Positions 5,713 to 56,659 of a stretch of 64,000 nucleotides of DNA are shown in pieces (positions within the stretch are counted from its first letter, which is position 1; the number at the start of each line of letters is the position of its first letter). Made by a program: the position numbers and the translations under genes. The notes under the pieces are model-generated. The model was not told where the DNA came from. It saw nothing but the letters and a program-made list of their open reading frames with translations, and made no database searches. Origin of the DNA: a virus; the IMG/VR virus record IMGVR_UViG_3300042559_001567, positions 1 to 64,000 of that record, one strand, 5' to 3'.

Positions 5713-6198
5713 TTAATTTTCCTTACTTCTATCCCATTTTGCTTTTCTGGCTTCTGGAGAAAGTATCATTGGCTCGTCTATTGTGTGTTCAATTTTAACC
5801 CTAATACAGGTTTGGGGTAAACCACAGTTCATTAAATAATTATTAATATATCCCATCATATTAGCACTACCGATTGGATTTGCGGAATGAACATAAATTT
5901 GGGGAAGGGGTATCTTTTTGGACATACTTTCAGCCACTAAAAATTTACAACAATCATATCCTGTTTTTTCATTAACTATGTTGTCATAATTTAAAACATA
6001 ATTATTTTTTACATTTGTATAGTACTCAATCATAGACTCATCACCTAAATCATGGTCTAACGAAATAACATCAAAATTTTCTAACCCATATAATCTAATG
6101 GTAGAAACAAAATGTTCATAATTTCTTATAATAACCCAATCAGTTCCAATTGGTGTTCTAACGTCGTCTAAGTATAATCTTTTTTTCTCAGTTTTCAT
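5713..6198 (-). CDS. Cyclic-phosphate-processing receiver-like protein
   Basis: 161 residues with the signature of the receiver-fold domain associated with RNA repair: LDDVR (10-14), SLDHDLG (46-52), TGYD (79-82), HSANPIG (104-110) and NMM (113-115). In the family these acidic and His residues are predicted to act on 2',3'-cyclic phosphate RNA ends. The gene overlaps the upstream RNA ligase gene by 11 nt, which fits a shared role: processing broken 3' ends so the ligase can seal them. This is not a classical two-component response regulator; it lacks the usual phosphorylation context. The end-processing activity is inferred from family and neighbours. Confidence 0.7.
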   Translation of the reverse strand: MKTEKKRLYLDDVRTPIGTDWVIIRNYEHFVSTIRLYGLENFDVISLDHDLGDESMIEYYTNVKNNYVLNYDNIVNEKTGYDCCKFLVAESMSKKIPLPQIYVHSANPIGSANMMGYINNYLMNCGLPQTCIRVKIEHTIDEPMILSPEARKAKWDRSKEN

Positions 6199-7396
6199 CT
6201 TTCTTAAATGGTTTTGAATATTCTGGTTTAACTATTTTCCAAATTATGTCATCGACTTTTTCATTATTTCCATTCCACATTGCGAACATAATCGCATGTA
6301 AAACTTTTTGTTGTTTCATAACAAATTCGGCAAATTCTTTTTTAGATGGCTCAGGGCCCCTGTCATTAAATTTTCCATATCTAAAACCATCATGTAATTT
6401 ACCTGCACGTTCTCTTAGTTGAAAACAAGCATATCTTAAATCTCGAACAGTTTCTTTAACCCATTGATTAAATTCGTCCGGAACTTTTTCAAGTAGTTCA
6501 TCAAATGGTTTATTATCTTTCAAATATTCCCATATATCTCTATTTGATACGTTGGTTAAAATTTTGTGAAGTCTAACATATTCTTCTCCTTTAATTTTCA
6601 TACGGAAACCATTATTGAAACGAATGACATAACCTTCCTTGTCTTTAGATATTTCTTCTTTCAATAAGTCATATCCTTCGCCCCAAGTTTTGTACGTTGT
6701 TACAACTTCAAAACCTTGTTCTTGCATAAAAAATATTGAACTATTGGGTAACTCCTCACCACTATCGGTATCTATAACACCAAGAAGAACTAACTTTTCT
6801 TCATTACCATAATTAACAACGATACGATTTTCGGGATAAATAATCTCAAACAAATAGGTTCTTTTTTTACTTAAAGAACTTACATCATATTTGTTATCAA
6901 GAATTTCTTTTCCCTTAATTGCTTGTGGTGATGTGAATGACCCACGAGTTGCCATTATCCATTCACCCTTAGTCTTTGGTGTTGGTTCATAATATGAATT
7001 ATCATAATCAGGTAAGTTGTTCGGGTCAAAAAACCTTTCCATGCCCGTTTCGTAATTATTATTAAACCATATGTTGTATCTCCTTTCATCACTCAATTCG
7101 TATTCGTAATAAAAGAGAATACCTAAAGAACCATCCATTTTTTCATAGACAACATAATCTTCATTTGGGATGTCTTCTGATTTATGTTCTTCGTAGTTGA
7201 AGAATTTCTTAAACGGTCTTGCAACAATTTTTCCTTTTGAGTTGGTTACCAATCCACGACATTGCAAAGTAATCTCATCCCATAATCTTTCATACTGAAC
7301 TTTTGGTGAATAATTCCAAATAGTTAAATCAAGAGTTGGGTGAGTTTGTTTATGTAACAAACCATCAGTATGGTATTTCTGTAAAATTTCCAACAT
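6188..7396 (-). CDS. RNA ligase, T4 Rnl1 type
   Basis: A 402-residue nucleotidyltransferase that seals RNA 3'-OH to 5'-phosphate using ATP. Visible motifs: RGLV upstream (48-51), motif I KMDGS with the adenylated lysine K86, the motif IIIa/III region around YLFEIIYP (181-188), motif IV EGYVIRF (254-260) and motif V MKIKGEEYVRLHK (266-278). The C-terminal 120 residues are helical as in Rnl1, and the length is close to the T4 enzyme. In T4, Rnl1 works with polynucleotide kinase to repair tRNA cut by host anticodon nucleases. Here a P-loop kinase-like gene is two genes upstream and a cyclic-phosphate-processing gene overlaps downstream. Confidence 0.88.
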   Translation of the reverse strand: MLEILQKYHTDGLLHKQTHPTLDLTIWNYSPKVQYERLWDEITLQCRGLVTNSKGKIVARPFKKFFNYEEHKSEDIPNEDYVVYEKMDGSLGILFYYEYELSDERRYNIWFNNNYETGMERFFDPNNLPDYDNSYYEPTPKTKGEWIMATRGSFTSPQAIKGKEILDNKYDVSSLSKKRTYLFEIIYPENRIVVNYGNEEKLVLLGVIDTDSGEELPNSSIFFMQEQGFEVVTTYKTWGEGYDLLKEEISKDKEGYVIRFNNGFRMKIKGEEYVRLHKILTNVSNRDIWEYLKDNKPFDELLEKVPDEFNQWVKETVRDLRYACFQLRERAGKLHDGFRYGKFNDRGPEPSKKEFAEFVMKQQKVLHAIMFAMWNGNNEKVDDIIWKIVKPEYSKPFKKDEN

Positions 7397-7641: not shown

Positions 7642-8070
7642 CTATAATTTAATTTCAAACCTATTCTTCATTTGTTGAAGTTTATCTTTTGGGACTCCGT
7701 GGATATTTTCATTACCATGCCTATTCTCTACAATTATTGTATGAACCCTATAATTGTACCTTTCAGCCATTTTAAAATATTCATCCATTTCCCACTCCTG
7801 TGTAAATGTATTTGCAACCACAATTCTCACTTTTTGTTGTCTCATTCTTTCGGAACATCTAAATTGACAATAATTGTGTGCTTCTTTTAATTTTGTTGGG
7901 TCGAAATTATATTCACCATTTTCATCCTCAAAAAAATCATCTGCAGACAATATTTCTTGTGGGTTGTTATTTGGTTGTTGTAATATAACATTGGCAAATG
8001 TTGTTTTACCCGAACCAGGAATACCTCTGAGAAGTATTAAATCGCCTTGTTTTTCTGTATTTGTATCCAT
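7642..8070 (-). CDS. P-loop polynucleotide-kinase-like protein
   Basis: 142 residues with Walker A GIPGSGKT (16-23), a SADDFF segment (42-47) in the position of the acceptor-binding Asp of zeta-toxin/kinase-like P-loop proteins, and a later Arg-rich lid (around residues 73-82). It resembles the kinase half of T4 Pnkp or AAA_33/N4BP2-type kinases and likely phosphorylates 5'-OH RNA ends. It has no phosphatase domain; the receiver-like gene downstream may supply 3'-end processing. It is first in the operon, with a TCTCTCTCC stretch just before its ATG. Confidence 0.72.
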   Translation of the reverse strand: MDTNTEKQGDLILLRGIPGSGKTTFANVILQQPNNNPQEILSADDFFEDENGEYNFDPTKLKEAHNYCQFRCSERMRQQKVRIVVANTFTQEWEMDEYFKMAERYNYRVHTIIVENRHGNENIHGVPKDKLQQMKNRFEIKL

Positions 8071-8493: not shown

Positions 8494-10512
8494 TTATAAC
8501 AATTTTTTTGAAATTGTTAATTTTTCATCTTTATATTTAAGAGTTATTGGTTCGTTTTCCTTTATATTTCCTCTTAGTATTTCTTCACTTAAAAAATCTT
8601 CACAAAGATTTTGAATGATTCGTTTTAAAGGACGAGCACCATATTCTTCTTGACTGTTTAATTCAAAAATTCTATTTGTAACGGTTTTATCAAAAGTTAC
8701 TAAGAAATTTTTATCTAACAATCTACTGTTTAATTTACCAACCTCTATTTGAATTATTTTCTTAAGAGTTTCTTCGTTAAGTGCATTGAATAATATTACG
8801 TCATCAATACGATTTAAAAATTCAGGATTGAATTGTTGTTTTAATGCCTTTTGTATCATTGATTTTCTTACCTCATACTTTTGAGTTTCGCTCGATGATG
8901 TATTAAAACCAACACCTCCACCAAATTCAGAAACTCTTTTAGCTCCTAAATTGGATGTCATGATAACCAAACAATTTGTGAAGTTTATTTTTCGACCAAA
9001 TGAATCTGTTAAATGTCCTTCATCTAAAATTTGTAATAATAGATTAAAAACGTCTTTATGTGCTTTTTCAATCTCATCAAATAAAATAACAGAGAATGGG
9101 TTGTTTTTAACCTTTTCAGTTAATTGACCACCTTCATCGTATCCAACGTAACCCGGAGGAGAACCGATTAATTTAGAAACATTGTGTCTATCCATAAACT
9201 CACTCATATCAACACGAATGATTTTTTCAGGGTCACCAAATAAAAGATTGGCTAATGATTTCGCTAAATGTGTTTTACCAACACCCGTAGATCCTAAAAA
9301 GATAAATGAACCTATAGGTTTATTTGCATCTTTGATTCCAACACGATTCCTTCTAATTGCTTTTGATATTGTTGTAATTGCTTCTTCTTGTCCAATTACT
9401 TTATCAGTCAATAAGGTTTCCATTTTTAACAGTTTTTCTGTTTCCTTACTATCAAGTTTAGTAATTGGTACACCAGTCATTTCGGAAACTATGGTATAAA
9501 CATCATCAACGGACACAGGAATTTTATTCCCCTTTTGTTTTTCTGACCATTTTACCTTTTCGTTTTCAAGTTTATCAAAAATTTTCTTTTCTTCATCTCT
9601 TAATTTTGCCGCTTGTTCATAATTTTGAGATTTAACAACTTGTATTTTTCTTTCTTTTATCTCATCAATCAATTTTTTTAATTTTTCAATTGATTCGGGT
9701 ACTCTACTCGATACTCTTTTTTCTGAACCTAATTCGTCTATTACATCAATCGCCTTATCAGGAAATTGTCTATCTGTAATGTATCTACCAGAAAGTTTAA
9801 CAATTGTTTCTATTACATTTTCCTCATAAGATACCCTATGAAATGTTTCATATGACTCTTTTAAATTTTTAAGAATCTCAACTGTTTCTGCCATCGTAGG
9901 TTCTTTCAAAATTACCTTCTGAAATCTTCTAACTAATGCGGAATCTTTTTCGATGTGTTTTTTAAATTCATCAAAAGTAGTTGCACCAATACATTGAATT
10001 TCACCACGAGCCAAAGCCGGTTTCATAATATTTGCAGCATCCATCGCACCACTCGCATTACCTGCACCCACCATTGTGTGTAATTCATCAATAAACACGA
10101 TTACATTTGGTGATTCTTGTAATTCGTTTAAAATTGCTTTAATACGTTCTTCAAATTGTCCACGATATTTTGTACCAGCAACAAGTGAAGTTAAATCTAA
10201 AGACATAATTCGCTTATCTAATAAATTTGTTGGACAATCTCCTTTAACAATCATTAAAGCAAGTTTTTCAACAAGTGCGGACTTACCAACACCGGCATCA
10301 CCAACAATAACCGCATTATTTTTCTTTTTACGTGAAAGAATTTGAGCTATTCTTTTCACTTCTTTATCCCTACCAACAACGGGATCAATTTTACCTTCTT
10401 CTGCGAGTTTAATTAAATCTCTTGAGAAGTTATCTAAAATTGGTGTGGTTGAACCTTTGCGTCCCTTTTTAGGGGTTGAGGTTGGTCCGTCCTCAAAGAA
10501 ATCTACTGCCAT
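8494..10512 (-). CDS. ClpC-like AAA+ unfoldase lacking the N-terminal domain
   Basis: A 672-residue Hsp100 protein with two AAA+ modules. D1 has Walker A GDAGVGKS (71-78) and Walker B VFIDE (139-143). A UVR-like helix pair (about 290-318) between the modules is typical of ClpC. D2 has Walker A GSTGVGKT (407-414), Walker B ILFDE (476-480) and SPPGYVGYDEGG (451-462). VGF (534-536) lies where ClpC carries the ClpP-docking loop. The usual N-terminal substrate/adaptor domain is missing; the protein begins with a short linker. It could pair with host ClpP and redirect proteolysis, or act as a chaperone in assembly. It is divergent from Hsp20. Confidence 0.9.
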   Translation of the reverse strand: MAVDFFEDGPTSTPKKGRKGSTTPILDNFSRDLIKLAEEGKIDPVVGRDKEVKRIAQILSRKKKNNAVIVGDAGVGKSALVEKLALMIVKGDCPTNLLDKRIMSLDLTSLVAGTKYRGQFEERIKAILNELQESPNVIVFIDELHTMVGAGNASGAMDAANIMKPALARGEIQCIGATTFDEFKKHIEKDSALVRRFQKVILKEPTMAETVEILKNLKESYETFHRVSYEENVIETIVKLSGRYITDRQFPDKAIDVIDELGSEKRVSSRVPESIEKLKKLIDEIKERKIQVVKSQNYEQAAKLRDEEKKIFDKLENEKVKWSEKQKGNKIPVSVDDVYTIVSEMTGVPITKLDSKETEKLLKMETLLTDKVIGQEEAITTISKAIRRNRVGIKDANKPIGSFIFLGSTGVGKTHLAKSLANLLFGDPEKIIRVDMSEFMDRHNVSKLIGSPPGYVGYDEGGQLTEKVKNNPFSVILFDEIEKAHKDVFNLLLQILDEGHLTDSFGRKINFTNCLVIMTSNLGAKRVSEFGGGVGFNTSSSETQKYEVRKSMIQKALKQQFNPEFLNRIDDVILFNALNEETLKKIIQIEVGKLNSRLLDKNFLVTFDKTVTNRIFELNSQEEYGARPLKRIIQNLCEDFLSEEILRGNIKENEPITLKYKDEKLTISKKLL

Positions 10513-10569: not shown

Positions 10570-10625
10570 ATGTCAAAATGTCTAAAAAAATGTCTAACCA
10601 ATGTCTAAATGTCAGTTTTAGACAT
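10570..10625. promoter_or_regulatory. Iterated ATGTC(TAA) operator-like repeats
   Basis: Between the divergent ClpC-like and Hsp20 genes: ATGTC at 10570, ATGTCTAA at 10578, 10590 and 10601, ATGTC at 10609, and the inverted copy TTAGACAT at 10618-10625. Five direct copies and one inverted copy in 56 bp look like binding sites for a regulator controlling both chaperone genes. Confidence 0.55.
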
Positions 10626-10655
10626 TTGGTTTACAATTTGTAAAACATATGTTAA
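10625..10655 (+). promoter_or_regulatory. Host-like promoter for Hsp20 (TTTG-N19-TATGTTAA)
   Basis: TTTG at 10625-10628 and TATGTTAA at 10648-10655 with 19-nt spacing. The TTTG overlaps the inverted repeat copy, so a bound regulator would block it. The start codon is 13 nt downstream. Confidence 0.5.
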
Positions 10656-10668
10656 AAATATAAAAACT

Positions 10669-11025
10669 ATGATAACATTATTTAAAGACCCATTCTTCAC
10701 AGGATTTGATACTAACAGATTTTTATCTACTCCTGAAACTAACATTAGTAAAAGTGAAACTGAGTATTCGGTTTCGATAAGTGTACCTGGTTTAACCAAA
10801 GACGATTTAAAAATCTCAACAAAAGAAGGTATATTAAAAATCATTTACGAAAAAGAAGAAAGTGATAAAACACATCATTTTATTGGAAGTTTTGTAAAAT
10901 CTTATAATATACCTGACGATGTAAAGGAAAAAGACATTGTCGGTAAGGTTGAAAACGGAGTTCTTGAACTTACTTTACCTATTGATAGGAAAAAATCACT
11001 TGAAAGGTTAATTTCACTTAATTAA
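10669..11025 (+). CDS. Small heat-shock protein (Hsp20/alpha-crystallin)
   Basis: I chose ATG 10669 (MITLFKDPFFTGFD), because the upstream in-frame ATG at 10609 lies inside the operator repeats and promoter. The 118-residue product holds an alpha-crystallin domain: ETEYSVSISVPGLTKDDLKI, then a strand with GILKI, a short loop, FVKSYNIPDDV and ENGVLELTLP. The N-terminal arm is short and the C-terminal extension minimal. Such proteins hold unfolded clients for Hsp100/Hsp70. T4-like phages often carry one, and here it is paired divergently with a ClpC-like ATPase. Confidence 0.9.
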   Translation: MITLFKDPFFTGFDTNRFLSTPETNISKSETEYSVSISVPGLTKDDLKISTKEGILKIIYEKEESDKTHHFIGSFVKSYNIPDDVKEKDIVGKVENGVLELTLPIDRKKSLERLISLN

Positions 11026-16061: not shown

Positions 16062-17837
16062 ATGAATTCCAAAATAGAACAACTAAAGGAGTATGCGAAA
16101 ATTATAAAGGATGCACCATATGCGTTAAAAACATATTTGCAAACCTATGACAATACTCAAAAAAAATATGTTCCATTAGAGTTGTTTCCTGACCAAATTC
16201 AATTAATTCAGGATTATGAAAATTATAATGAAAACATAACTAGAAAATATAGACAGGCTGGTGTTACTACGGTAACTGCCGCTTGGATTTCTAAGAAATT
16301 ACAAACCGCAAAGGAAAATGAACCAGAAAGGGTTCTTCTTATTGCAAACAAACGTGACACTGCGGTGGAAATGGCCAATAAAGTTAGAAATTTTATTGAG
16401 CAATGGCCTGAATGGATTAATGTTGGGTTCTCACCCGATAAGAACTCAGAAAGTAGATTTAGATTAAACAATGGGTGTGAGGTTAAGGCGGTAGCAACAT
16501 CTGCAGATGCCTTACGTGGTTATACACCAACTATACTTGTATTTGATGAGGCGGCTTATATTGAAGCGGGTGAGGATTTTTGGGCGGCATCTATGGCGTC
16601 CCTATCAACGGGTGGTAAGATTATTCTTATCTCAACCCCAAATGGTTATGACCCTATCTATTACGGTGTTTATGACCAAGCATTACGTGGAATCAATGAT
16701 TTCCATATAACAGATTTAAGGTGGTTTAAAGACCCTCGTTATACCAAAGATTTACATTGGGTTAAGTGTCAAGACATTTGTCATTACATGTTGAATAGAG
16801 AACAATATAATGATGATGAAGTTGTAATGAAGGATTTTAATCCAGAGAATTATAATGAATATATTGAACAAGGATATAAACCGTTCTCTTCTTGGTTTGA
16901 ATCAATGTCTAAGAAATTTAAATATGATAGACGTAAGATTGCTCAGGAATTGGAATGCGATTTCTTAGGTTCGGGTGATGGTGTTATTCCGGGTGATATT
17001 CAAGAGAACATTGCTAAGAATATGATACGTGTACCTAAAGAAAAATATATGCAGGGTACATTTTGGCATTGGAAGGAACCTGTTCAGGGACATCGTTACA
17101 TTATGGGTGTAGATGTTAGTAGAGGTGATAGTGAAGACTTCTCCTCAATTAATATTATCGACTTTGATGAAAGGGAACAGGTTGCAGAATACATTGGAAA
17201 AATACCTCCTGATGATTTGGCTGCAGTTGCATATAAATGGGGTGTTTTGTATGAGGCATATATTGTTATTGATATTACAGGGGGTATGGGTGTTGCAACG
17301 TCTAGGAAGTTACAAGAGATGCAATATAAAAATCTATACATCGATGGGATAAACACTCAAAATATATGGGAGTGGAATAAAAAGGCCATGGATAAAATCC
17401 CCGGTATAAATTTTAACAATAAAAGAACTCAAATAGTTGCTGCTTTCGAGGAACAATTAAGAAAGGGGTTTTTAGTTAGGTCAAGTAGGTTATTAAATGA
17501 ACTTAATACGTTTGTTTATATAAATGGTAGACCCGACCACATGAAAGGTGCTCACGATGATGCAATTATGAGTATGTCAATGGCGTTATATGCTGCCGAT
17601 ATGTGTTTCAATCAATTACAAAAGAACGAAAACGCAAATAAAGCAATGTTGGAGTCTTGGACGATGTCAGAAAGATCGTATGAACCCAATAAATCGTTTT
17701 ATTCTTACGGTACTGCATTTGACCAAATTGGTTCTATGGGGATTGATAATCAAAATTTATATCACCCAAATAATAATATGAATGTATCAAAGGACGCATA
17801 TAGAGAACATATGTGGTTATTTGGTAAATCAAAATAA
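16062..17837 (+). CDS. Terminase large subunit (T4 gp17-like)
   Basis: A 591-residue DNA-packaging motor. The ATPase has a deviant Walker A, RKYRQAGVTT (61-70), lacking the Lys before TT, with basic residues at the loop start instead. Walker B is LVFDEA (159-164) and the coupling motif ISTPNG (190-195). The RNase-H-like nuclease shows D351 in MGVDVSRGD, a VIDITGG strand, and D492/D499/D500 in the C-terminal DHMKGAHDD. Length and order match gp17. It is followed directly by portal. Confidence 0.93.
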   Translation: MNSKIEQLKEYAKIIKDAPYALKTYLQTYDNTQKKYVPLELFPDQIQLIQDYENYNENITRKYRQAGVTTVTAAWISKKLQTAKENEPERVLLIANKRDTAVEMANKVRNFIEQWPEWINVGFSPDKNSESRFRLNNGCEVKAVATSADALRGYTPTILVFDEAAYIEAGEDFWAASMASLSTGGKIILISTPNGYDPIYYGVYDQALRGINDFHITDLRWFKDPRYTKDLHWVKCQDICHYMLNREQYNDDEVVMKDFNPENYNEYIEQGYKPFSSWFESMSKKFKYDRRKIAQELECDFLGSGDGVIPGDIQENIAKNMIRVPKEKYMQGTFWHWKEPVQGHRYIMGVDVSRGDSEDFSSINIIDFDEREQVAEYIGKIPPDDLAAVAYKWGVLYEAYIVIDITGGMGVATSRKLQEMQYKNLYIDGINTQNIWEWNKKAMDKIPGINFNNKRTQIVAAFEEQLRKGFLVRSSRLLNELNTFVYINGRPDHMKGAHDDAIMSMSMALYAADMCFNQLQKNENANKAMLESWTMSERSYEPNKSFYSYGTAFDQIGSMGIDNQNLYHPNNNMNVSKDAYREHMWLFGKSK

Positions 17838-17890: not shown

Positions 17891-19726
17891 ATGGCAGAAC
17901 AGAATCTTACCGTCTTTCAGAGATTAACAAAGGTGTTTGGTTACCCAAATCAAGCAAAACAAAAAAATGTTGCACCACCTTCGTTTAATTTCAACAAAGA
18001 TGAAATATTAAAAACGGATAGTAGAGAAGAATATGAAAAGGCAATGTTACAAGCTCAACAGAGTCAATACATTGCAGATAAGTGGACTAAATTAGACCAA
18101 TCACTTTACAATCAATCTGTTTATTACGAACCAAATAGGTTATCAGCATATTACGATTATGAATCTATGGAGTTTACTCCCGAAATATCTGCGGCGTTAG
18201 ACATTTATGCTGAAGAATCAACAACAATGTCTGAGAAAGGACAAATATTAACAATATTTTCAGATTCAGATAGAGTTAAAAATATATTAGATGATTTATT
18301 TAATAACAAATTAGATGTTAACACTAACTTACAAATGTGGACAAGAGGTCTTTGTAAGTATGGTGACGATTTTGTTTATTTAAAAATAGACCCTGAGAAG
18401 GGAGTTGTTGGTTGTCAACAGTTACCAAATATTGAAATTGAAAGAATTGAGGGTGCGGCATCTAAAACACCGAACTCATATACTGATATTAAAGTTCCAA
18501 CAAGAGAGTTAAGATTTACTTGGAAGAATAAAGATTTAGAATTTCAAGCATGGGAGATTGCACACTTTAGATTATTAGGTGATGATAGAAAACTTCCTTA
18601 TGGAACTTCTATGTTAGACAAGATTAGAAGAATTTGGAAACAATTACTTCTTGCGGAAGATGCAATGTTAATTTACAGAACATCAAGAGCACCTGAAAGA
18701 CGTGTATTCAAAGTATTCGTTGGTAACATGGATGATAAGGATATTGAACCTTATGTACAACGTGTTGCTAATAAATTTAAAAGAGACCAAGTTTCAGATC
18801 CACGTAATGGTAATGTAGATATGAGATATAATCAAATGGCGGTAGACCAAGATTATTTCATTCCTGTTCGTGATCCAGCACAAAGCAATCCAATTGAAAC
18901 ATTGCCGGGGGCTCAAAATTTAGGTGAAATTGCAGATATCGAATATATTCAAAAGAAGTTATTAGCGGCGTTACGTATTCCAAAGGCATTCTTAGGATTT
19001 GAAGAAGTTGTTGGTGAAGGTAAGAGTTTAGCATTAATGGATATTCGTTTTGCGAGAACGATTAATAGAATTCAAAAATCTATTATTCAAGAATTAAATA
19101 AAATTGCATTAGTACATTTATATCTTTTAGGTTTAGAAGATGAGTTAGATAATTTTTCTTTATCGTTAACTAATCCTTCAGCACAATCTGATTTATTAAA
19201 AATAGAACAGTGGAAAGAAAAGATTACACTTTATAAAGACGCAACATCTGACCAATCACAAGTCGGTATTTTACCAGTATCTCACACGTGGGCTAAAAAG
19301 AATATTCTTGGTATGAGTGACTCAGAGGTTATTTTAGATTTACAACAACAAAGACTTGAAAGAGCAATGGGATTTGAATTGACAAATACACAAAACATAA
19401 TTAAACGTTCTGGCGTATTTGACGACGTGGATTCTAAGTATGGTATTTCTGAAGAAGAAAGACAAAAATTAGAAGCTGCAGGTGCAATGGGTGGTGATAC
19501 TGCTGGTGCAGGAGCAATGGATATGGGTGGAGCACCCGCAACCCCTCCATCGGGAGGTGAGGGAGAAGCTCCATTGAGTGAATCTTTTACTAAATCTAAA
19601 AAATCAAAGATATTAAGTATGTTGGGAGAAGAAAAAGAAGGAAAAAATGTTTTATTTGATATGGAAAGAGCTCAACAGAATATTTATGAAATAGAAAATA
19701 AATTGAACGATATTATAAACGATTAA
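17891..19726 (+). CDS. Portal protein (T4 gp20-like)
   Basis: 611 residues. T4-type portal features: LDIYAEESTT early, a stem/clip region with ILDDLFNNKLDVNTNLQMW, FRLLGDDRKLPYGTS, and the wing/crown part with PGAQNLGEIADIEYIQKKLL and the ALRIPKAFLGF motif. It forms the dodecameric vertex through which DNA is packaged. The C terminus adds a Gly/Ala/Met linker and a charged helix. It lies between terminase and head-assembly genes; the frame opens at ATG 17891 though a longer shifted ORF overlaps. Confidence 0.92.
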   Translation: MAEQNLTVFQRLTKVFGYPNQAKQKNVAPPSFNFNKDEILKTDSREEYEKAMLQAQQSQYIADKWTKLDQSLYNQSVYYEPNRLSAYYDYESMEFTPEISAALDIYAEESTTMSEKGQILTIFSDSDRVKNILDDLFNNKLDVNTNLQMWTRGLCKYGDDFVYLKIDPEKGVVGCQQLPNIEIERIEGAASKTPNSYTDIKVPTRELRFTWKNKDLEFQAWEIAHFRLLGDDRKLPYGTSMLDKIRRIWKQLLLAEDAMLIYRTSRAPERRVFKVFVGNMDDKDIEPYVQRVANKFKRDQVSDPRNGNVDMRYNQMAVDQDYFIPVRDPAQSNPIETLPGAQNLGEIADIEYIQKKLLAALRIPKAFLGFEEVVGEGKSLALMDIRFARTINRIQKSIIQELNKIALVHLYLLGLEDELDNFSLSLTNPSAQSDLLKIEQWKEKITLYKDATSDQSQVGILPVSHTWAKKNILGMSDSEVILDLQQQRLERAMGFELTNTQNIIKRSGVFDDVDSKYGISEEERQKLEAAGAMGGDTAGAGAMDMGGAPATPPSGGEGEAPLSESFTKSKKSKILSMLGEEKEGKNVLFDMERAQQNIYEIENKLNDIIND

Positions 19727-19728
19727 AA

Positions 19729-20475
19729 ATGAACAAATTCGGGGTTATAAAAACCAAAATGTTGACGAAATTAACTGAATCTTACGCTAAAGAGAATAAG
19801 AAAGAAGTTAAAGATTTATTAAACACAATCAAAGAAAACAAAGACTTTAAAGAAATGTATTTGTTTTATGAAGAAATTGAAAACAAATACATTGAAGATA
19901 AAGAAACTGCGAAGTTATATGTTGAAGGATTAAATACATATTTTGGTCAACCAATAGGTAATTGGAGTAGTTTAAATATGTTTTGTGAATCTTTAAATAC
20001 TAAGTTGGGTGAGATTGAAATCGAAACCAAAGAATTATACGAATCTTTAGATATGTTATCAGAAAAAGATTCATTATCAAATATTGAAAAGAAAGTTATT
20101 GCAAAAAAGAAATTAGTAGAACATTTAACAACTAAAAAGGAAATCAAAGAATCTAAAGATTCAACTATTGTTCCTAACGAAACATTACTACAAGCGGTAT
20201 TAGCAAACAATTTTAACGTATTATATTCTAACACATTATCAGAATCACAAAAAGAAGAATTAAAAAATATCTTATCAATTTCTTATGATGATTTAGTAAC
20301 TAAAAGTAATGAATTACAAGAATCAATTATTAATCAGGTATCTACACTTTTAAGTGAATCAAACGACTCTGATTTAACCACTAAACTAAATAAAGTAAAA
20401 GATGAAGTTAGTCAAATGACAACATCTAAGTACAACTACTACAGATTAACAGAATTAAAAAATGGTCTTAACTAA
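19729..20475 (+). CDS. Helical head-region protein
   Basis: 248 residues, Lys/Glu/Asn-rich and almost entirely helical by composition, no motif recognised. It starts 2 nt after the portal stop, in the place where T4 has small prohead core genes (gp67/68), so a scaffold/core role is plausible. Its stop codon lies inside a bidirectional terminator shared with the convergent bS21 gene. Confidence 0.55.
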   Translation: MNKFGVIKTKMLTKLTESYAKENKKEVKDLLNTIKENKDFKEMYLFYEEIENKYIEDKETAKLYVEGLNTYFGQPIGNWSSLNMFCESLNTKLGEIEIETKELYESLDMLSEKDSLSNIEKKVIAKKKLVEHLTTKKEIKESKDSTIVPNETLLQAVLANNFNVLYSNTLSESQKEELKNILSISYDDLVTKSNELQESIINQVSTLLSESNDSDLTTKLNKVKDEVSQMTTSKYNYYRLTELKNGLN

Positions 20476-20488
20476 GACCATTTTTTAT
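20457..20488. terminator. Bidirectional terminator embedding both stop codons
   Basis: A perfect 14-bp inverted repeat (20457-20470 and 20473-20486; AATGGTCTTA at the core) with A-runs and T-runs on both sides. The plus-strand stop TAA (20473-20475) and the minus-strand stop (20468-20470) are both inside it. Confidence 0.85.
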
Positions 20489-20659
20489 TTGTTGAACATA
20501 CACAGCTTTTAAAACTTCTTTTCTTCTAGTAACTGAAGGTTTTTCAAATTGTTGTCTTTCCCTCAATTTTTGAATTTGCTTAGTTTTTTGAACCTTTTGT
20601 TTATAGGTTCTAAGTGCACTTTCAATACTTTTTTCTTTTGTTAAATCGATAATAATCAT
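20468..20659 (-). CDS. rpsU: Ribosomal protein bS21 homologue
   Basis: 63 residues matching bS21: IESALRTYKQKVQKT, then LRERQQFEKPSVTRR with the conserved F-x-KPS-x-RR block, then KAVYVQQIKN. Length and the short C terminus match bS21 of Bacteroidota rather than the longer gammaproteobacterial form. In host ribosomes bS21 sits next to the anti-Shine-Dalgarno of 16S rRNA and affects start selection; phage copies could replace it and favour phage mRNAs. It is on the opposite strand within the head module and has its own TATATTTG element. Confidence 0.9.
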   Translation of the reverse strand: MIIIDLTKEKSIESALRTYKQKVQKTKQIQKLRERQQFEKPSVTRRKEVLKAVYVQQIKNGLS

Positions 20660-20677
20660 AATATAATAAGTATACTA

Positions 20678-20685
20678 CAAATATA
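20678..20685 (-). promoter_or_regulatory. Host-like -7 element TATATTTG for bS21
   Basis: Exact TAnnTTTG on the minus strand, 18 nt upstream of the bS21 ATG. No convincing TTTG box further upstream. Confidence 0.45.
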
Positions 20686-20766
20686 TAAAATTATTTTTGG
20701 TTTTGTAAGTTTTTTTTCTTATTTTTTAGATAACACCATAAAATAATATATAATAATGAGAAATTA

Positions 20767-21192
20767 ATGAAAACAGGTAAGTATATCCCATTAGGGACTT
20801 ACAACAATGTAAAAATCGGTTATGGTACCGTAGATTTTAAAAATCTTAAAACCGTTTATTTGAAATTGAATGCATGGGTACAACCAGAAAATGATACTGA
20901 AGATTATAATCAAACCATTTCAAAGACAAGAAGAAAAATAAAAGAATCAATATACAATCTTAAAGATTCAAATTTTAAAGACCAATGTATTGTTGATTTA
21001 GATATAAGAACAAAAGGTATTAAGTTAGAAAAAAGGTCATTCATGAACCTCGAAATAACTTTATATGTTGAGAAACAATTTGATGTTAAATCAAAAGAAA
21101 TTAAAAATACAATTAAAAATTTATTGGTAGATGTTGTTAATGACGGTTTAATTGATAAAAAACTGTTCAATTTTCACAAAAGCAAGAAATAA
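20767..21192 (+). CDS. Unknown 141-residue protein in the head module
   Basis: A basic Lys-rich protein of mixed alpha/beta look (VDLDIRTKGIKLEKRSFMNLEITLYVEK in the middle). No recognised domain. It lies between portal and protease genes; A-rich leader. Could be a decoration or core protein. Confidence 0.5.
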   Translation: MKTGKYIPLGTYNNVKIGYGTVDFKNLKTVYLKLNAWVQPENDTEDYNQTISKTRRKIKESIYNLKDSNFKDQCIVDLDIRTKGIKLEKRSFMNLEITLYVEKQFDVKSKEIKNTIKNLLVDVVNDGLIDKKLFNFHKSKK

Positions 21193-21230: not shown

Positions 21231-21914
21231 ATGAAGATATTAGGACCAAAAGAGACGGGGCACGGAATTTTAATAGAGTACGATGCTGGTCACGTTTCAC
21301 CAGAGGATAACAAACAAATTATTAAAGAGGCGAAGGATATGGACTTTTCACAAGACCTTATCCTTTATGCCGTTTTGCAAAAATACGACACTGCAAATAA
21401 GAATGGAAGGATTTATCCTGAGATGTTACTTAAGAGAGAAAACGAGAAATATCAATCACTTATCAAAAAGGGTGGAGCACTTAATGAATTAAACCATCCC
21501 TCATCTTCACTTATCGACTTAGATAGAGTATCCCATTCAATTCTTGAAACATGGTGGGACGGTAAAATCCTAATGGGTAAAATTAAATTATTCACTTCTC
21601 CAGGTTGGAGAAAGATGGGTATTGTATCTACTAGAGGAGACCAAGCTGCAATGTTAATTATGAACGGAGCAACTTTAGGTATATCTTCTCGTGGTGTTGG
21701 TTCACTTAAAAATGTAAAAGGACAAAATATTGTTCAGGAGGACTTCGAGTTAGTGTGTTTTGATTTAGTATCATCACCATCAACTCCAGGTGCGTATGTT
21801 TTTGCGGACCAATCTGAAAGAGACCAATATCAAGAGTCTGAAGAGAAAAAACCCCAAGTTGAGGATAGAATGAAAAAATTAATGGGAAATTTAGATACTT
21901 TTTTATCTAAATAA
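21231..21914 (+). CDS. Prohead protease (T4 gp21-like)
   Basis: A 227-residue serine protease of the herpesvirus-assemblin-like fold. Visible: NGRIYP (58-63), the catalytic His in NELNHP (H89), the catalytic Ser in GISSRGVG (150-157), and the DFELVCFDLVSSPSTPGAYV region (171-190). It cleaves scaffold and capsid N termini during head maturation. It is encoded just before scaffold and major capsid genes, as in T4. Confidence 0.9.
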   Translation: MKILGPKETGHGILIEYDAGHVSPEDNKQIIKEAKDMDFSQDLILYAVLQKYDTANKNGRIYPEMLLKRENEKYQSLIKKGGALNELNHPSSSLIDLDRVSHSILETWWDGKILMGKIKLFTSPGWRKMGIVSTRGDQAAMLIMNGATLGISSRGVGSLKNVKGQNIVQEDFELVCFDLVSSPSTPGAYVFADQSERDQYQESEEKKPQVEDRMKKLMGNLDTFLSK

Positions 21915-21999: not shown

Positions 22000-23175
22000 A
22001 TGACTGAAAAATCAATTTTAGAACAAGCGTTACTTCAAGTACAAACACTTGAAGAAGCCGTAAAGCAAAATGCAAAGGGTATACTTGCTTCAACTATGAA
22101 ACAAGAACTGAATGACTTGCTTAAAGAATCATTGGAAGAAGAGGAAGAAACTGAAAACCCTATGATTGCCGCTGAGCAACCTGAGGACGAAGTTAATCCT
22201 GACGAAGAGGCAGATGATATGTCAGACGATGAAGCAACAGCAGATGATGCTGAAGCTGATGATGCTGAAAATGACGCAACAGACCTCGATAACGAAGATC
22301 CTATGAAAGGTATCGACTCATTAGACTCAGAAATGGGTGATGATGAATTACCTACAGATTCAGAATCAGAAGACGAAGAAGCATCTATGGATGATTTTTC
22401 TGCAGATGATGAAGATGTAATGGACATGACAGGTGCTTCAGATGATGAAGTACTAAAAGTTTTTAAGGCTATGAAACCAGAAGATGGTATTGTAGTTAAA
22501 AAAGACGGTAACAATGTCGAAATGTCTACAGGTGATGACGACTATATTATCAAACTTGATGGTGATGATGAATCAGAAATGGAAGCTCCAGCAATGGAAC
22601 CTGAAATGGACGAAGAAATTATGTACGAAATTGAGTTAGATGAAGAAGACGAAGATTCTGAAGAAATTGAGGTTTCTGAAGAGGAAGAAGAATCTAAAGA
22701 AGGAGAGTTTGGCGAAGCTGCAAGAACATATGGAGCTGACGTTAGAGCACCTCAGGGTAAAAAATACAAAGCTGGTCGTCACGAAATGAATGAAGAAGTT
22801 GAAAACTTAAAAAAGCAAAATTCTGAGTATAAGAAGGCGTTAATCCTTTTTAAAGAAAAACTTAATGAAGTTGCTGTTTTCAATGCGAACTTAGCTTATG
22901 CCACTCGTTTATTCACAGAACATTCTACAACAAAACAGGAGAAATTGAATATATTAAAGAGATTTGATTCAGTTTCTACTATGAATGAGGCTAAAAATCT
23001 ATTCAATACAATAAAAACTGAATTAGGTACAAAAATAACAGTTACCGAATCAGTAGTTGAAAAAATCTCAAACACTCCATCAACATCAACATCTCAAGAA
23101 GTATTATCAGAAGCTAAAGCATATGAGAATCCACAATTCAAGAGAATGAAGGATTTGATGAGTAAAATAAAATAA
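22000..23175 (+). CDS. Prohead core scaffold (T4 gp22-like)
   Basis: 391 residues. A short N-terminal helix, then about 200 residues of extremely acidic Asp/Glu/Ala/Ser/Met sequence, then a Lys/Glu helical C-terminal domain (about 265-391). It is assigned by position between protease and capsid genes and by composition: core scaffolds are acidic, helical and removed by the protease. A direct sequence match to gp22 is not evident. Confidence 0.75.
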   Translation: MTEKSILEQALLQVQTLEEAVKQNAKGILASTMKQELNDLLKESLEEEEETENPMIAAEQPEDEVNPDEEADDMSDDEATADDAEADDAENDATDLDNEDPMKGIDSLDSEMGDDELPTDSESEDEEASMDDFSADDEDVMDMTGASDDEVLKVFKAMKPEDGIVVKKDGNNVEMSTGDDDYIIKLDGDDESEMEAPAMEPEMDEEIMYEIELDEEDEDSEEIEVSEEEEESKEGEFGEAARTYGADVRAPQGKKYKAGRHEMNEEVENLKKQNSEYKKALILFKEKLNEVAVFNANLAYATRLFTEHSTTKQEKLNILKRFDSVSTMNEAKNLFNTIKTELGTKITVTESVVEKISNTPSTSTSQEVLSEAKAYENPQFKRMKDLMSKIK

Positions 23176-23209: not shown

Positions 23210-24964
23210 ATGGGAGCATTATTAGAATCAGGTATGGTAGGTAACATCGGTCTTAAGCACCTTCGTGTTATCAAAGAAGATACCATCAAAAAATGGGATG
23301 ACTTAGGCTTTTTAGAAGGTCTTAACGGTCACCAAAAAGATAACATCGCGCAATTGTATGAAAACCAAGCGTCTTACTTAATCAATGAAGCAGCAACAGC
23401 TGATGCATCTGGTTCTTTCGAGACTGTAGTTTTCCCAATTATCCGTCGTGTATTCTCTAAATTATTAGCAAACGACATCGTTTCAGTACAAGCAATGAAC
23501 TTACCAATTGGTAAATTGTTCTTCTTCGTACCTAAAATTCAAGAAAGAAACGCAAGTAACGGTCACTATTCTCCTTACGGTATCCCAGGTGGTGCTGGTG
23601 GATCAAGTGCTTCTACTGGTTATACAGGTATTAACTTGTACGATCGTTTCTACGAGAACAGTGATGCAAACGATCAAGGTTTGTTTGATTACTCTAAAGG
23701 AGAGTTTTCAACAGTTTCTTTAACAGGTACATCACTTCACGAATTTGCTGCAGGTGAAGCAGGTAACGGAGTAACTTACACTTCAGGTTCAACTGTAACT
23801 TCATTAGGTTCAGTAATCTTGAAATTAACTGGTTTCTCTAAACCAGGTCAAGGTAAATTAGCAGGTCCAGACGGTAACGAAATGGATACTGAAGAATTTT
23901 TAGCTTCATTATCTTTAACATGTCCTCGTATTGCTGGTTTAAGTGGTAGAACATCATTACCATTTAACGTAGTAACTCAGAAATATGGTAAAGGTATTGT
24001 AGAATACGGTTCAAGAACCGCAGGTGCAAATGGTCTTAAATTTAATGACATTTGTGATGAAGATGGTGCAATCTACTTAAACGTTGATTTACAATCTTAT
24101 TCATCTACTGCAGGTTATTCTAATTTTTCTGTAACAGGTACAACATCTTTAGATGGTACTGACTTTACAGCGGAATACCGTCGTTATGCAACTTTAGAAT
24201 TTGAAGATGCAATCGGTGAAGTTTCTTTTGATTTAGAATCAGTAACAGTTTCTGTAACTGAAAGAAAATTAAGAGCTAGCTGGTCTCCTGAATTGGCTCA
24301 AGACGTTAGTGCATTCCACAACATCGATGCTGAGGCAGAATTGACAGCTTTATTATCAGAGCAAATCGCTGCTGAAGTTGACCGTGAAATCTTACGTGAC
24401 TTACGTAAAGGTGCAGCATGGAAAGCTAAGTGGGATTATAACGAATGGAAATACGGTGGAACTGGTGGAGCAACTCTACAAGGTTACACACAGAAAGATT
24501 GGAACCAAACTTTAGTAACTAAAGTTAACCAAATTTCTGCTCAAATCCACAAGACTACATTAAGAGGTGGTGCTAACTGGATTGTTGTTTCTTCAGAAGT
24601 TTCTGCAGTATTCGATGATTTAGAGTATTTCCACGTATCTAATGCAGCTCCTGAGCAAGATTCATACAACATGGGTATCGAGAAAATCGGTTCTCTTGCT
24701 GGAAGATATCAAGTATATCGTGACCCTTACTTCCCAGCTGGAAAAATCTTGATTGGACATAAAGGAAAATCATTATTGGACGCAGGATATGTATACGCAC
24801 CATACGTGCCATTACAATTAACTCCAACAATGTACAATCCATTCAACATGACTCCTATCAAAGGTATCATGACACGTTACGCAAAGAAAATGGTGAACAA
24901 CCGTTACTTTGGTGTAATCGATGTACAAGGTATTGTAACATTCAATATGGATACATTAAGATAA
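23210..24964 (+). CDS. Major capsid protein (T4 gp23-like)
   Basis: 584 residues with an HK97-type T4 capsid pattern: LLESGMVGNIGLKHLRVIKE at the start, ATADASGSFETVVFPIIRRVFSKL (about 62-85, near the expected protease cleavage zone), PIGKLFFFVPKI, and the C-terminal block with LSPELAQDVSAFHNIDAEAEL-like sequence, the ILRDLRKGA helix and PLQLTPTMYNPFNMTPIKGIMTRYAKKMVNNRYFG. Codon use is more C-ending (TTC, AAC, CGT) than in neighbours, as expected for the most highly expressed gene. A strong terminator follows. Confidence 0.95.
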   Translation: MGALLESGMVGNIGLKHLRVIKEDTIKKWDDLGFLEGLNGHQKDNIAQLYENQASYLINEAATADASGSFETVVFPIIRRVFSKLLANDIVSVQAMNLPIGKLFFFVPKIQERNASNGHYSPYGIPGGAGGSSASTGYTGINLYDRFYENSDANDQGLFDYSKGEFSTVSLTGTSLHEFAAGEAGNGVTYTSGSTVTSLGSVILKLTGFSKPGQGKLAGPDGNEMDTEEFLASLSLTCPRIAGLSGRTSLPFNVVTQKYGKGIVEYGSRTAGANGLKFNDICDEDGAIYLNVDLQSYSSTAGYSNFSVTGTTSLDGTDFTAEYRRYATLEFEDAIGEVSFDLESVTVSVTERKLRASWSPELAQDVSAFHNIDAEAELTALLSEQIAAEVDREILRDLRKGAAWKAKWDYNEWKYGGTGGATLQGYTQKDWNQTLVTKVNQISAQIHKTTLRGGANWIVVSSEVSAVFDDLEYFHVSNAAPEQDSYNMGIEKIGSLAGRYQVYRDPYFPAGKILIGHKGKSLLDAGYVYAPYVPLQLTPTMYNPFNMTPIKGIMTRYAKKMVNNRYFGVIDVQGIVTFNMDTLR

Positions 24965-32942: not shown

Positions 32943-33641
32943 TTATTCTAAAAATCCACCCAAAATCCCGTCGTACATCTTTTTGAATTTTTTTAGAGAT
33001 ATTCTAATTTCTTTGGTGGAAAGGGATGTCATTTCTCGTAATGATAATAAAATTAGGTTTTTGTTAAATTTATTACCGTCACCAACTTGGAATATTCTAT
33101 CAAAATTATTAAAAATTTCAAGTAACGCATAACCTAATTTCTGTTCGTTATCTGTTAGGTCTTCTTTTTCCATAAACTCCTCTAAGGATATTGTTAGTTT
33201 AATAATAACATCCCGATAGTCTACGATATACTCATCAATAACATAGGATAAATCCGTTCTATCCTCAATGTCAGATGATATATCATCATAAGAAACTTGT
33301 CTATTCTGTTCTTTTGTGTCTTTCTGTATTGCCCCCATTAGGTAGTTTTTACAGATTGTCCCAAAATAGGAGTATGCTTTATGATTTTTTGTGTGATCAA
33401 ATTTGTGAATTTTAGTAATTAAAAACGACATTGTATCGTTATGAATTTCCTCAAATTCTAAATCTTTTCTGTAAAGTTTATAACGTCGAATAATTGATTC
33501 GACCATTATAATTAGGGGTTCTCGTAAATATTCGTTGAATATCTTGTTTTTTTCTGCATCGTCACTACTTTCAAGGTAACTGACTACCGCCTTCTCTTGA
33601 TCCTCCCCAAAATAAATTTTTTGGGTACGTTTTCTCGGCAT
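32943..33641 (-). CDS. Late-transcription sigma factor (T4 gp55-like)
   Basis: 232 residues with a sigma-70 region 2 core: a helix around 40-57 (LREPLIIMVESIIRRY), FEEIHNDTMSFLITKIHKFD (63-82), then HKAYSYFGTICKNYLMGAIQK (87-107) and a polar tail. Regions 3-4 are weak: only a short C-terminal helical part with LSLREMTSLSTKEI that could be a region-4-like helix-turn-helix. T4 gp55 is a similar minimal sigma that reads TATAAATA with a sliding clamp coactivator. Here it could read the TATTTATA element. It overlaps the glycosyltransferase gene upstream by 1 nt. Confidence 0.8.
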   Translation of the reverse strand: MPRKRTQKIYFGEDQEKAVVSYLESSDDAEKNKIFNEYLREPLIIMVESIIRRYKLYRKDLEFEEIHNDTMSFLITKIHKFDHTKNHKAYSYFGTICKNYLMGAIQKDTKEQNRQVSYDDISSDIEDRTDLSYVIDEYIVDYRDVIIKLTISLEEFMEKEDLTDNEQKLGYALLEIFNNFDRIFQVGDGNKFNKNLILLSLREMTSLSTKEIRISLKKFKKMYDGILGGFLE

Positions 33642-53779: not shown

Positions 53780-56659
53780 ATGGCAAATTCAAACAGAGTA
53801 TTCGTTTCTCCAGGTGTCTACACATCTGAGAAGGATCTAACATTCGTGGCTCAAAGTGTCGGAGTAACAACATTGGGATTAGTAGGTGAAACCTTAAAAG
53901 GTCCAGCTTTCGAACCAATTTTAATAGGAGACTTCGACGAATTCAAAACATACTTTGGCGGTACCTCTCCAGAAAAATATGGAGACGGATCTAATAACCC
54001 AAAATATGAGTTACCTTACGTAGCTAAATCTTATTTACAAGAGTCAAACCAATTATTCGTAACAAGAGTACTTGGATTGACTGGATATAAAGCAGGTAAA
54101 ACATTCGCAATAAAAACATTAGGTGGTATTTCACCAACAGGTGCTACTTGGGATTCAAGTTATAGTACGTCTGGAAGTACTACTATGTCTGCAACAACCG
54201 CAACAATTACCGGAAGTACAATATATGGTGAGTTATCGGGTAAAACTTCAACAGAAGGAGTATCTATAACAAGTTATATAGTATCAAATTTTAGTGGTTT
54301 TACAACTACAGATGACGGTAAATGGTTTACAATTGGTTTAATGCCTTCAGGTGTAACATTACCTAGTACGACATTACAAGTTGTATCGCCTTTAACAGGT
54401 AAACTATACAGTGAAACACCTAATAATAAAGAATGGTACAATACTTTCTTTAATTCAGGTGCAACAATTAATCAACTTTATTCATATAAATTTGCTTGGA
54501 ATTCAGGTACTACTAGATTTGATGTTGTAAAATACACATTTGGTGCTGAGGTTAATACCGATTATGATAGTATATCTGTGGCAACATTAAGATCAAGAGG
54601 TCGTTATGCTTCAGAGATATTAACTTATGAAGTTACGGGCACCACACAAGTTTCATTGGCCGAAGTTACAGATATTGAATTAAATCCATTAGGTGAATTT
54701 CAAATTAATGTTACAGGAACAACAGGAGGTGCAAAATCATTTAATTGTACTTTAGATACAACGTCAACAAAATACATTAAAAAAGTATTAGGTTCTGATG
54801 TATTTGACAAGTCATATGAAGATTTTCCTCTTTATGTTTATGAATCTTATCCTAATTTAGTTAAATCCGCTTATGAAAGAGGATTGATTAGAGGTTTAAG
54901 TACAACTAAAGTTTTTAATGATGAAGGTTCTAACTTTTTAGGTCAATGGTCAACATCTTTATCTCCAATGGTGGTTTCAGAAGTTCGTGGTGGAAAAGTT
55001 TCAGATTTATTTGAAGTAATAACAATTTCAGACGGTGAAGGTTCTAACTACCAAGTTAAAATAACAATCCAAAACATTAATTTAGATTCAGGTGAATTTG
55101 ACATTGTTGTTCGTGATTTTAACGATACTGATGACAATATGGTTGTTCTTGAAAAATATTCAAGATGTTCTATGAATCCTGACATGCCAGGTTTTGTTGG
55201 TAGAAAAATAGGTACCGCCGATGGTGAGTACGAATTACGTTCAAAATATATAATGTTATCTTTAGCTGATAATCATCCATCGGATGCGTTCCCTGCAGGA
55301 TTTAAAGGATTTGTTAATAATGCAAACTTTAGTGGAACAACATTAGGTAGTGTAATTTATAAAACTGAATATATCGATGCTGGTGATGTAGTAACATATA
55401 ACGCAGACGGTACTGAAAATATTGAGTCAGGTGATAAGGTAAAGAAAGTAATGTTAGGATTATCATCACAAGTCGGATTTGATAAGGATTTATTTAAATA
55501 TAAAGGTACAAGTGGTACAACTGAAACTTTCGGATTCCACTTATCTGTTAATGCTACCGATATTACAGGAACTACATACCAATGTACACCTTACGATTTA
55601 GAAGGTATAACAAAAGGAGCGTTAGAAAATATTGCATATCGTAAATTTACATTTGCAACATGTGGAGGTACAGATGGTTGGGATATCTATAGAACATCAA
55701 GAACCAACACCGACGGTTATATATTTGGTAAAACAACTTACAACAATAATAAAACAACTGGTGCGTATAGTGGGGTGTTTAACGCTGATAATGGAAACTC
55801 TGACTATTATGCTTATTTAGACGCTATAAACACATTTGCTAACCCTGAAGCGGTTGATATTAACGTATTTGCAACTCCAGGTATTAACTTCCGTGACCAT
55901 AGTTCTTTAGTTAATCAAGCAATTGATATGATTGAGAATGATAGAGCAGATTCATTATACATTATGAACTCTCCTAACATTACGGGAACAACCGCAGCTG
56001 CTGACGTTGTTGGTGAATTAGATACAGTATCTATTGATTCTAACTATTCTGCAACATATTGGCCTTGGATTCAAGTAAGAGATACGGATAATGCAACTCA
56101 ACTATATATCCCACCAACAGGTGAGGTATTGAAGAATATCGCATTAACCGACAACGTTTCTTATCCTTGGTTCGCAGTCGCGGGTTATTCAAGAGGTTTG
56201 GTAAATGCCATTAAAGCAACCAAAAAATTAACTTTAGACGAAAGAGATGAATTATATAAGAATAGAATCAACCCAATTGCAACTTTCTCTGATACAGGTA
56301 CAATTATTTGGGGTAACAAAACACTTCAAGTAAGAGAATCTGCATTGGATAGAATCAACGTAAGAAGATTATTATTGAGAGCAAGAAAATTAATTTCAGC
56401 AGTTGCGGTAAGATTGTTATTTGAACAAAATGACGAGCAAGTAAGACAAGAGTTCTTAAGATTGGTTAACCCTATCTTGGATTCAATTAAAAAGGAAAGA
56501 GGTTTGTACGAATTCAAAGTTACTGTTTCTAGTGACCCAGAAGATATTGATGCAAACACATTGAGAGGTAAAATTTATATTAAACCTACTCGTTCTCTTG
56601 AATTTATTGATGTTGAATTTGTAATCACTCCAACAGGAGCCTCATTTGAGAATATCTAA
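53780..56659 (+). CDS. Tail sheath protein (T4 gp18-like), enlarged
   Basis: 959 residues. The N terminus has RVFVSPGVYTSEKDLTFVAQ, then VGVTTLGLVGETLKGPAF. The C-terminal polymerising domain has NVRRLLLRARKLISAVAVRLLFEQND, FLRLVNPILDSIKKERGLYEF and TRSLEFIDVEFVITPTG. The contractile sheath powers genome injection. T4 gp18 is 659 residues; the additional about 300 residues are Thr/Ser/Gly-rich and probably form outward-facing insert domains (about 100-600). Confidence 0.95.
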   Translation: MANSNRVFVSPGVYTSEKDLTFVAQSVGVTTLGLVGETLKGPAFEPILIGDFDEFKTYFGGTSPEKYGDGSNNPKYELPYVAKSYLQESNQLFVTRVLGLTGYKAGKTFAIKTLGGISPTGATWDSSYSTSGSTTMSATTATITGSTIYGELSGKTSTEGVSITSYIVSNFSGFTTTDDGKWFTIGLMPSGVTLPSTTLQVVSPLTGKLYSETPNNKEWYNTFFNSGATINQLYSYKFAWNSGTTRFDVVKYTFGAEVNTDYDSISVATLRSRGRYASEILTYEVTGTTQVSLAEVTDIELNPLGEFQINVTGTTGGAKSFNCTLDTTSTKYIKKVLGSDVFDKSYEDFPLYVYESYPNLVKSAYERGLIRGLSTTKVFNDEGSNFLGQWSTSLSPMVVSEVRGGKVSDLFEVITISDGEGSNYQVKITIQNINLDSGEFDIVVRDFNDTDDNMVVLEKYSRCSMNPDMPGFVGRKIGTADGEYELRSKYIMLSLADNHPSDAFPAGFKGFVNNANFSGTTLGSVIYKTEYIDAGDVVTYNADGTENIESGDKVKKVMLGLSSQVGFDKDLFKYKGTSGTTETFGFHLSVNATDITGTTYQCTPYDLEGITKGALENIAYRKFTFATCGGTDGWDIYRTSRTNTDGYIFGKTTYNNNKTTGAYSGVFNADNGNSDYYAYLDAINTFANPEAVDINVFATPGINFRDHSSLVNQAIDMIENDRADSLYIMNSPNITGTTAAADVVGELDTVSIDSNYSATYWPWIQVRDTDNATQLYIPPTGEVLKNIALTDNVSYPWFAVAGYSRGLVNAIKATKKLTLDERDELYKNRINPIATFSDTGTIIWGNKTLQVRESALDRINVRRLLLRARKLISAVAVRLLFEQNDEQVRQEFLRLVNPILDSIKKERGLYEFKVTVSSDPEDIDANTLRGKIYIKPTRSLEFIDVEFVITPTGASFENI

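Follow-up and report, generated by a model that had tools for sequence, protein, structure and literature searches.

The window analysed here is a stretch of 64,000 nucleotides from the 116-kb virus record of a T4-like phage, and in its head module a gene for ribosomal protein bS21 lies antisense to its neighbours. The module reads forward from the terminase large subunit (TerL, 16062..17837, assigned by homology) and the portal protein (17891..19726; phrog_213, 2e-64) to a gene of unknown function encoding 248 amino acids (19729..20475), which ends in ...LKNGLN* and occurs in phages with and without bS21. It continues with a 141-aa gene (20767..21192), the prohead (head maturation) protease (21231..21914, by homology), an acidic protein with no family match (22000..23175) that is probably the scaffold, given its position between the protease and capsid genes, and the major capsid protein (MCP, 23210..24964; phrog_138, 2e-65). 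A sheath gene is located at 53780. The bS21 gene (MIIIDLTKEKSIESALRTYKQKVQKTKQIQKLRERQQFEKPSVTRRKEVLKAVYVQQIKNGLS, 63 aa, 20468..20659, reverse strand) begins with ATG. The first-pass annotation had placed it antisense between the portal and protease genes, which is correct; its exact flanks are the convergent 248-aa gene, with whose 3' end it shares an 8-nt overlap containing both stop codons (20468..20475), and the divergent 141-aa gene.

Family searches with the 141-aa protein returned no match, and its AlphaFold model (pLDDT 92) is a confident alpha/beta fold with a single structural relative, an uncharacterised myovirus protein, which is not informative. In gene order and length it resembles T4 gp68, which makes it a possible analogue. 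It seems to correspond to the gene that Chen et al. call bS21_CN. The divergent intergenic region between it and bS21 contains a block, TAACACCATAA (20731..20741, forward strand), that is near-invariant in 32 aligned close relatives; copies elsewhere in the window are not above chance. A repeated operator of the form TTATGGTGTTA was also considered and rejected, as it shows no enrichment in the window. A tRNA search of the window found none, and no near-identical DNA was found among GenBank phages.

Upstream of the head module lies a divergent pair encoding a ClpA/C-like ATPase (8494-10512, reverse strand), whose listed matches include no N-terminal Clp domain, and an Hsp20 protein (10609-11025, forward strand). 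McNutt et al. have speculated that a phage protease could help in bS21 exchange (PMC9976891). A T4-type RNA ligase 1 gene and a P-loop gene (AAA_33, kinase-like) at 6188-7396 and 7642-8070 on the reverse strand may form an RNA or tRNA repair pair.

Identity and conservation of the phage bS21

The product of the gene matches Pfam PF01165 (48 bits where the cut-off is 27; 1e-12), with residues 6-55 covering profile positions 4-53 of 55, and the NCBIfam equivalog TIGR00030 (42.9 bits against a cut-off of 28.95). Its best relatives in the PDB are the bS21 chains 9i5v and 7jil, the latter from F. johnsoniae, with residues 1-59 and 1-62 aligned, which covers almost the whole of these chains. The earlier description of a complete bS21 of Bacteroidota type is thus upheld, since the 63-aa frame, both profiles and the PDB relatives agree and the closest solved relatives are Bacteroidota ribosomes. 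The conserved KPS block that it reported is present as well, although the spelling needs correction: the residues are F-E-K-P-S-V-T-R-R, that is F-x-KPS-x-x-RR rather than F-x-KPS-x-RR. The 80 best viral loci hold 34 distinct relatives with 78-100% identity, and dN/dS against the window gene has a median of 0.14. Because of these profile and PDB matches, the viral relatives and the low dN/dS, we conclude from sequence comparison that this is a real bS21 gene under purifying selection; a chance open reading frame at 20468-20659 is ruled out by the PF01165 match together with the dN/dS value.

In F. johnsoniae, Tyr54 of bS21 stacks on A1534 and helps to tuck away the anti-Shine-Dalgarno (PMC9976891). 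The window protein resembles this RpsU (7jil, the model for anti-SD sequestration) in aligning over its full length, in its F-x-KPS block and in Tyr54, a residue shared without exception by the 33 distinct close relatives of full length; in the wider set position 54 is Y, F or H, the few motif failures or misaligned cases having been judged by eye. A position of the phage protein beside the anti-SD follows from homology, and stacking of its Tyr54 on A1534 is predicted. The two proteins are nonetheless only 42% identical. While the ribosome-facing block is kept in phage bS21, the N-terminal half is altered, and this half holds invariant differences from the F. johnsoniae protein, for example E9, E13, V23, Q24 and Q28.

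The slot in other phages and the origin of the gene

An antisense bS21 gene between two hypothetical genes, within a TerL-portal-protease-MCP block, was described by Chen et al. in 2022 in freshwater Bacteroidetes myophages; they found Tyr54 conserved and the gene transcribed late, and proposed that the phage protein takes the place of its host counterpart in ribosomes, to the advantage of phage transcripts (PMC9723584). The ribosome-substitution reading has therefore been in print since 2022, and the window adds one more member, sharing with their clades a-e the antisense slot, Tyr54, low GC (32%) and Clp and Hsp20 genes nearby. New here is that the slot has been read in 180 loci, including some that lack bS21 and some whose TerL identity is as low as about 56%.

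These loci, all with both flanks readable, came from searches of IMG/VR with bS21, the portal and the 141-aa gene. The slot holds bS21 in 153 of the 180, a sample enriched for the gene since 80 loci were fetched through bS21 itself, and the orientation is antisense in all 153. Among the 27 slots without it, 24 have a gap of 39-136 bp as against 237-503 bp where bS21 is present. Two loci in which bS21 was not detected (L192 and L203) have a gap of 354-360 bp, where another gene or a decayed bS21 may sit. The gene persists in the slot down to a TerL identity of about 56%, whereas Chen et al. had no bS21 below about 70% (PMC9723584). Both the 248-aa and the 141-aa neighbours are present in slots without bS21, so the 141-aa gene is independent of it; Chen et al., in contrast, found no counterpart of theirs in two outgroups (PMC9723584). 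On the portal tree the presence label switches nine times, at least six of the switches being forced by well supported branches, with gain and loss indistinguishable. Because of these repeated changes and the 27 slots without it, bS21 is dispensable.

The constant place of the gene among head genes could be taken to mean that this small basic protein acts outside the ribosome, binding RNA or DNA while packaged in the virion or during head assembly. The RpsU of Microcystis phage Mel-JY01 (PP395634) can be cited in favour of this, as it also lies within a T4-like head cluster, one with a related portal (45%); it flanks the protease gene on the opposite side, however, is encoded on the sense strand and is very divergent in sequence, and represents an independent acquisition or move. 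We consider a virion role highly improbable, because the head neighbours persist without bS21 and because conservation of the protein tracks its ribosome contacts, Tyr54 included. The head region of Flavobacterium phage immuto holds no bS21, and the 75-aa immuto gene at the position of the Mel-JY01 bS21 was rejected as a hidden copy, having no similarity.

In a bS21 tree that rests on 64 columns and leaves most forks unresolved, 75 of the 84 proteins from the slot cluster together close to Bacteroidota cells, and the other nine are placed with megaphage bS21. Each of the 80 best cellular relatives corresponds in name or sequence to Bacteroidota bS21; two come from MAGs that carry a Pseudomonadota label. 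The latter (L091 and L146) are Flavobacterium-type rpsU genes in MAGs labelled Limnohabitans and Rhizobium, probably through binning contamination. Since the best cellular matches to phage bS21 reach only 41-59% identity, the phage lineage is no recent copy of any sampled host gene.

It is also conceivable that the phage simply supplies a functional equivalent, which makes good a shortage of bS21 once takeover has caused host rpsU expression to fail and has no selectivity for phage mRNAs. The conserved ribosome-binding half and Tyr54 would suit such a role, a feedback loop governs synthesis of the host protein (PMC9976891), and the repeated presence and absence of the gene suggests a conditional benefit. 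The invariant differences in the N-terminal half, however, exceed what neutral equivalence needs, and we regard simple supply as fairly unlikely.

A palindrome shared by two convergent genes

The 3' ends of bS21 and the 248-aa gene meet within a perfect palindrome, TAAAAAATGGTCTTAACTAAGACCATTTTTTA (20456..20487), with a 14-bp stem, a 4-nt loop and a T-rich tail on both strands, which is predicted to be a two-way intrinsic terminator. A terminator scan called it on both strands, with two found where 0.3 were expected, and its folding z-scores are -5.8 and -6.6. The same bases encode both C-termini, KNGLN* of the 248-aa protein in the forward direction and KNGLS* of bS21 in the reverse. This shared two-way terminator encoding both convergent C-termini is new here; neither terminator nor promoter is discussed by Chen et al. 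(PMC9723584).

Chen et al. took the conserved C-terminus of phage bS21 as an adaptation to the ribosome (PMC9723584), in which case the KNGL end would have been selected for protein function there and not for a shared terminator. Some cellular Flavobacterium bS21 proteins do end in K/R-D-S/G-L at the matching place, and it is possible that the KNGL-like end is partly ancestral. Several features of the junction nevertheless make the ribosomal explanation of the motif decidedly unlikely. NGL is found in both proteins at 48 of the 76 distinct junctions that have bS21, and the synonymous third bases of Asn and Gly are mirrored between the two genes (AAT/AAT, AAC/AAC, GGT/GGT, GGA/GGA) with one exception. 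Across 13 distinct forms of the 8-nt overlap, 95.9% of cells pair, and double-sided stem changes occupy seven cells compared with 2.1 in shuffles and none when the partner is slid by 1-3 columns. These compensatory changes indicate that the hairpin is under selection. At L175 both C-termini have changed jointly (KDGLD/KDSLD), and at L184 and L287 the palindrome and the bS21 motif have been lost together while the neighbour still has KNGL. Three loci without bS21 (L190, L292 and L295) have a neighbour that ends in NGL and a hairpin of its own.

With the hairpin under selection, the conserved C-terminus of phage bS21 need not reflect ribosome binding, and the sequence favours the view that the terminator is what mainly constrains it. 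Such a terminator would end the bS21 transcript within a few bases of the stop codon, and an antisense gene could therefore sit within a sense operon.

Leader motifs and a proposed role in late translation

The bS21 leader in the window combines a host-like motif with one of phage late type. The former, TATATTTG (20678..20685, reverse strand), matches the Bacteroidota -7 element TAnnTTTG 18 nt before the ATG; a -33 TTTG at the appropriate spacing from it was looked for and not found. The latter, TACTTATT (20665..20672, reverse strand), is a variant of WATTTATW 5 nt before the ATG. The host-like element noted in the first-pass annotation is thus present, but it is confined to the subclade of the window, with TAnnTTTG in 26 of 76 distinct bS21 leaders (shuffle maximum 7), and the late-type motif is more widespread, occurring in 44 of the 76, in 34 of these 3-6 nt before the ATG.

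Within the window, WATTTATW lies upstream of 19 of the 38 genes that are preceded by enough space for a promoter (4.5 on average in shuffles, maximum 9), and the enrichment is restricted to this form, since the reverse, T4-orientation TATAAATA is at chance. The motif stands 3-8 nt before the ATG at window positions 16062, 17891, 45223, 58503, 51727, 49927 and 25441. Among distinct leaders of the relatives, WAYTTATW precedes TerL in 66/76, the portal in 80/106, the protease in 84/90 and the scaffold in 57/61, most often 3-4 nt from the ATG for TerL and the portal, and it is rare before the 141-aa gene (10/101) and MCP (1/73). If the motif acts in the manner of the T4 late -10 box, those mRNAs are predicted to be leaderless or nearly so. 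All of these are candidate promoters, proposed from motifs. A candidate reader of WATTTATW is encoded at 32943..33641 on the reverse strand, a probable phage late sigma factor that weakly resembles the family of T4 gp55-like late sigma factors (phrog_234, E 2.7e-4; Sigma70_r2 below cut-off).

It had been suggested that phage mRNAs here lack Shine-Dalgarno sequences or leaders. In the window an SD-like sequence precedes four of 70 genes, little different from the 2.1 expected by chance, which bears out the first part; leaderless or very short-leader mRNAs are compatible with late-type motifs 3-8 nt before the ATG. The bS21 leader of the window has no SD, unlike that of F. johnsoniae-type autoregulated rpsU, which carries a strong, extended SD for self-regulation. 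An SD of at least 7 nt is found in none of 153 phage bS21 leaders as opposed to 39 of 80 cellular rpsU leaders, the leaders being related and the counts not independent. A bS21 leader with host-like and late-type motifs and without an SD, unlike many host rpsU genes, is likewise new here.

In F. johnsoniae, when the C-terminal part of bS21 is missing from residue 43 onwards, ribosomes are poor at initiating on SD-less mRNAs (McNutt 2023, PMC9976891) but do so well on the SD-bearing rpsU mRNA, which gives autoregulation (PMC9976891). We lean towards a model in which, late in infection, a working phage bS21 occupies the bS21 site of host 30S subunits, maintains the competence of ribosomes for SD-less phage mRNAs and evades the rpsU feedback. 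As the phage protein keeps Tyr54, it would hold the anti-SD closed and leave ribosomes 'replete' for SD-less late mRNAs; this support for phage mRNAs follows from homology. The bypass of the feedback is something that we infer: the SD-less leader of phage bS21 would not be throttled by the host loop, while Tyr54, with the anti-SD closed, would lower host rpsU translation and help to exchange the pool. A stronger version, in which the near-leaderless late mRNA evades rpsU autoregulation while phage Tyr54, by closing the anti-SD, shuts off host rpsU translation and so tips the pool towards phage bS21, is tentative and in our view somewhat unlikely. That the host may lack an SD-regulated rpsU speaks against the model, as does the dispensability of the gene. 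The proposal is least secure where phage bS21 would prefer SD-less mRNAs of the phage to those of the host, the main idea of the first-pass annotation, by way of its changed helix 1.

Phage bS21 in ribosomes might instead block or slow host translation. Mizuno et al. (2019) showed that bS21 of Pelagibacter phage HTVC008M enters E. coli ribosomes (PMC6375957), and with a GFP template translation fell to about 5% (PMC6375957), so that incorporation may, by analogy, poison ribosomes rather than redirect them. HTVC008M bS21 is phage-encoded like that of the window but is from a phage of a proteobacterial host, and pelagiphage and E. coli are a heterologous pair. Late expression alongside structural proteins that need translation (PMC9723584) also speaks against host shut-off, which we think very unlikely.

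The mirror-coded C-termini show how a late operon can keep an antisense gene, and they call for caution in taking the conserved tail of phage bS21 as an adaptation to the ribosome. Viruses that swap ribosomal proteins provide a natural test of whether the composition of the ribosome selects mRNAs, and for this test the locus predicts which mRNAs would be concerned (SD-less late ones with short leaders), when (from the late motif) and how the counter-loop of an SD-bearing rpsU would be avoided.
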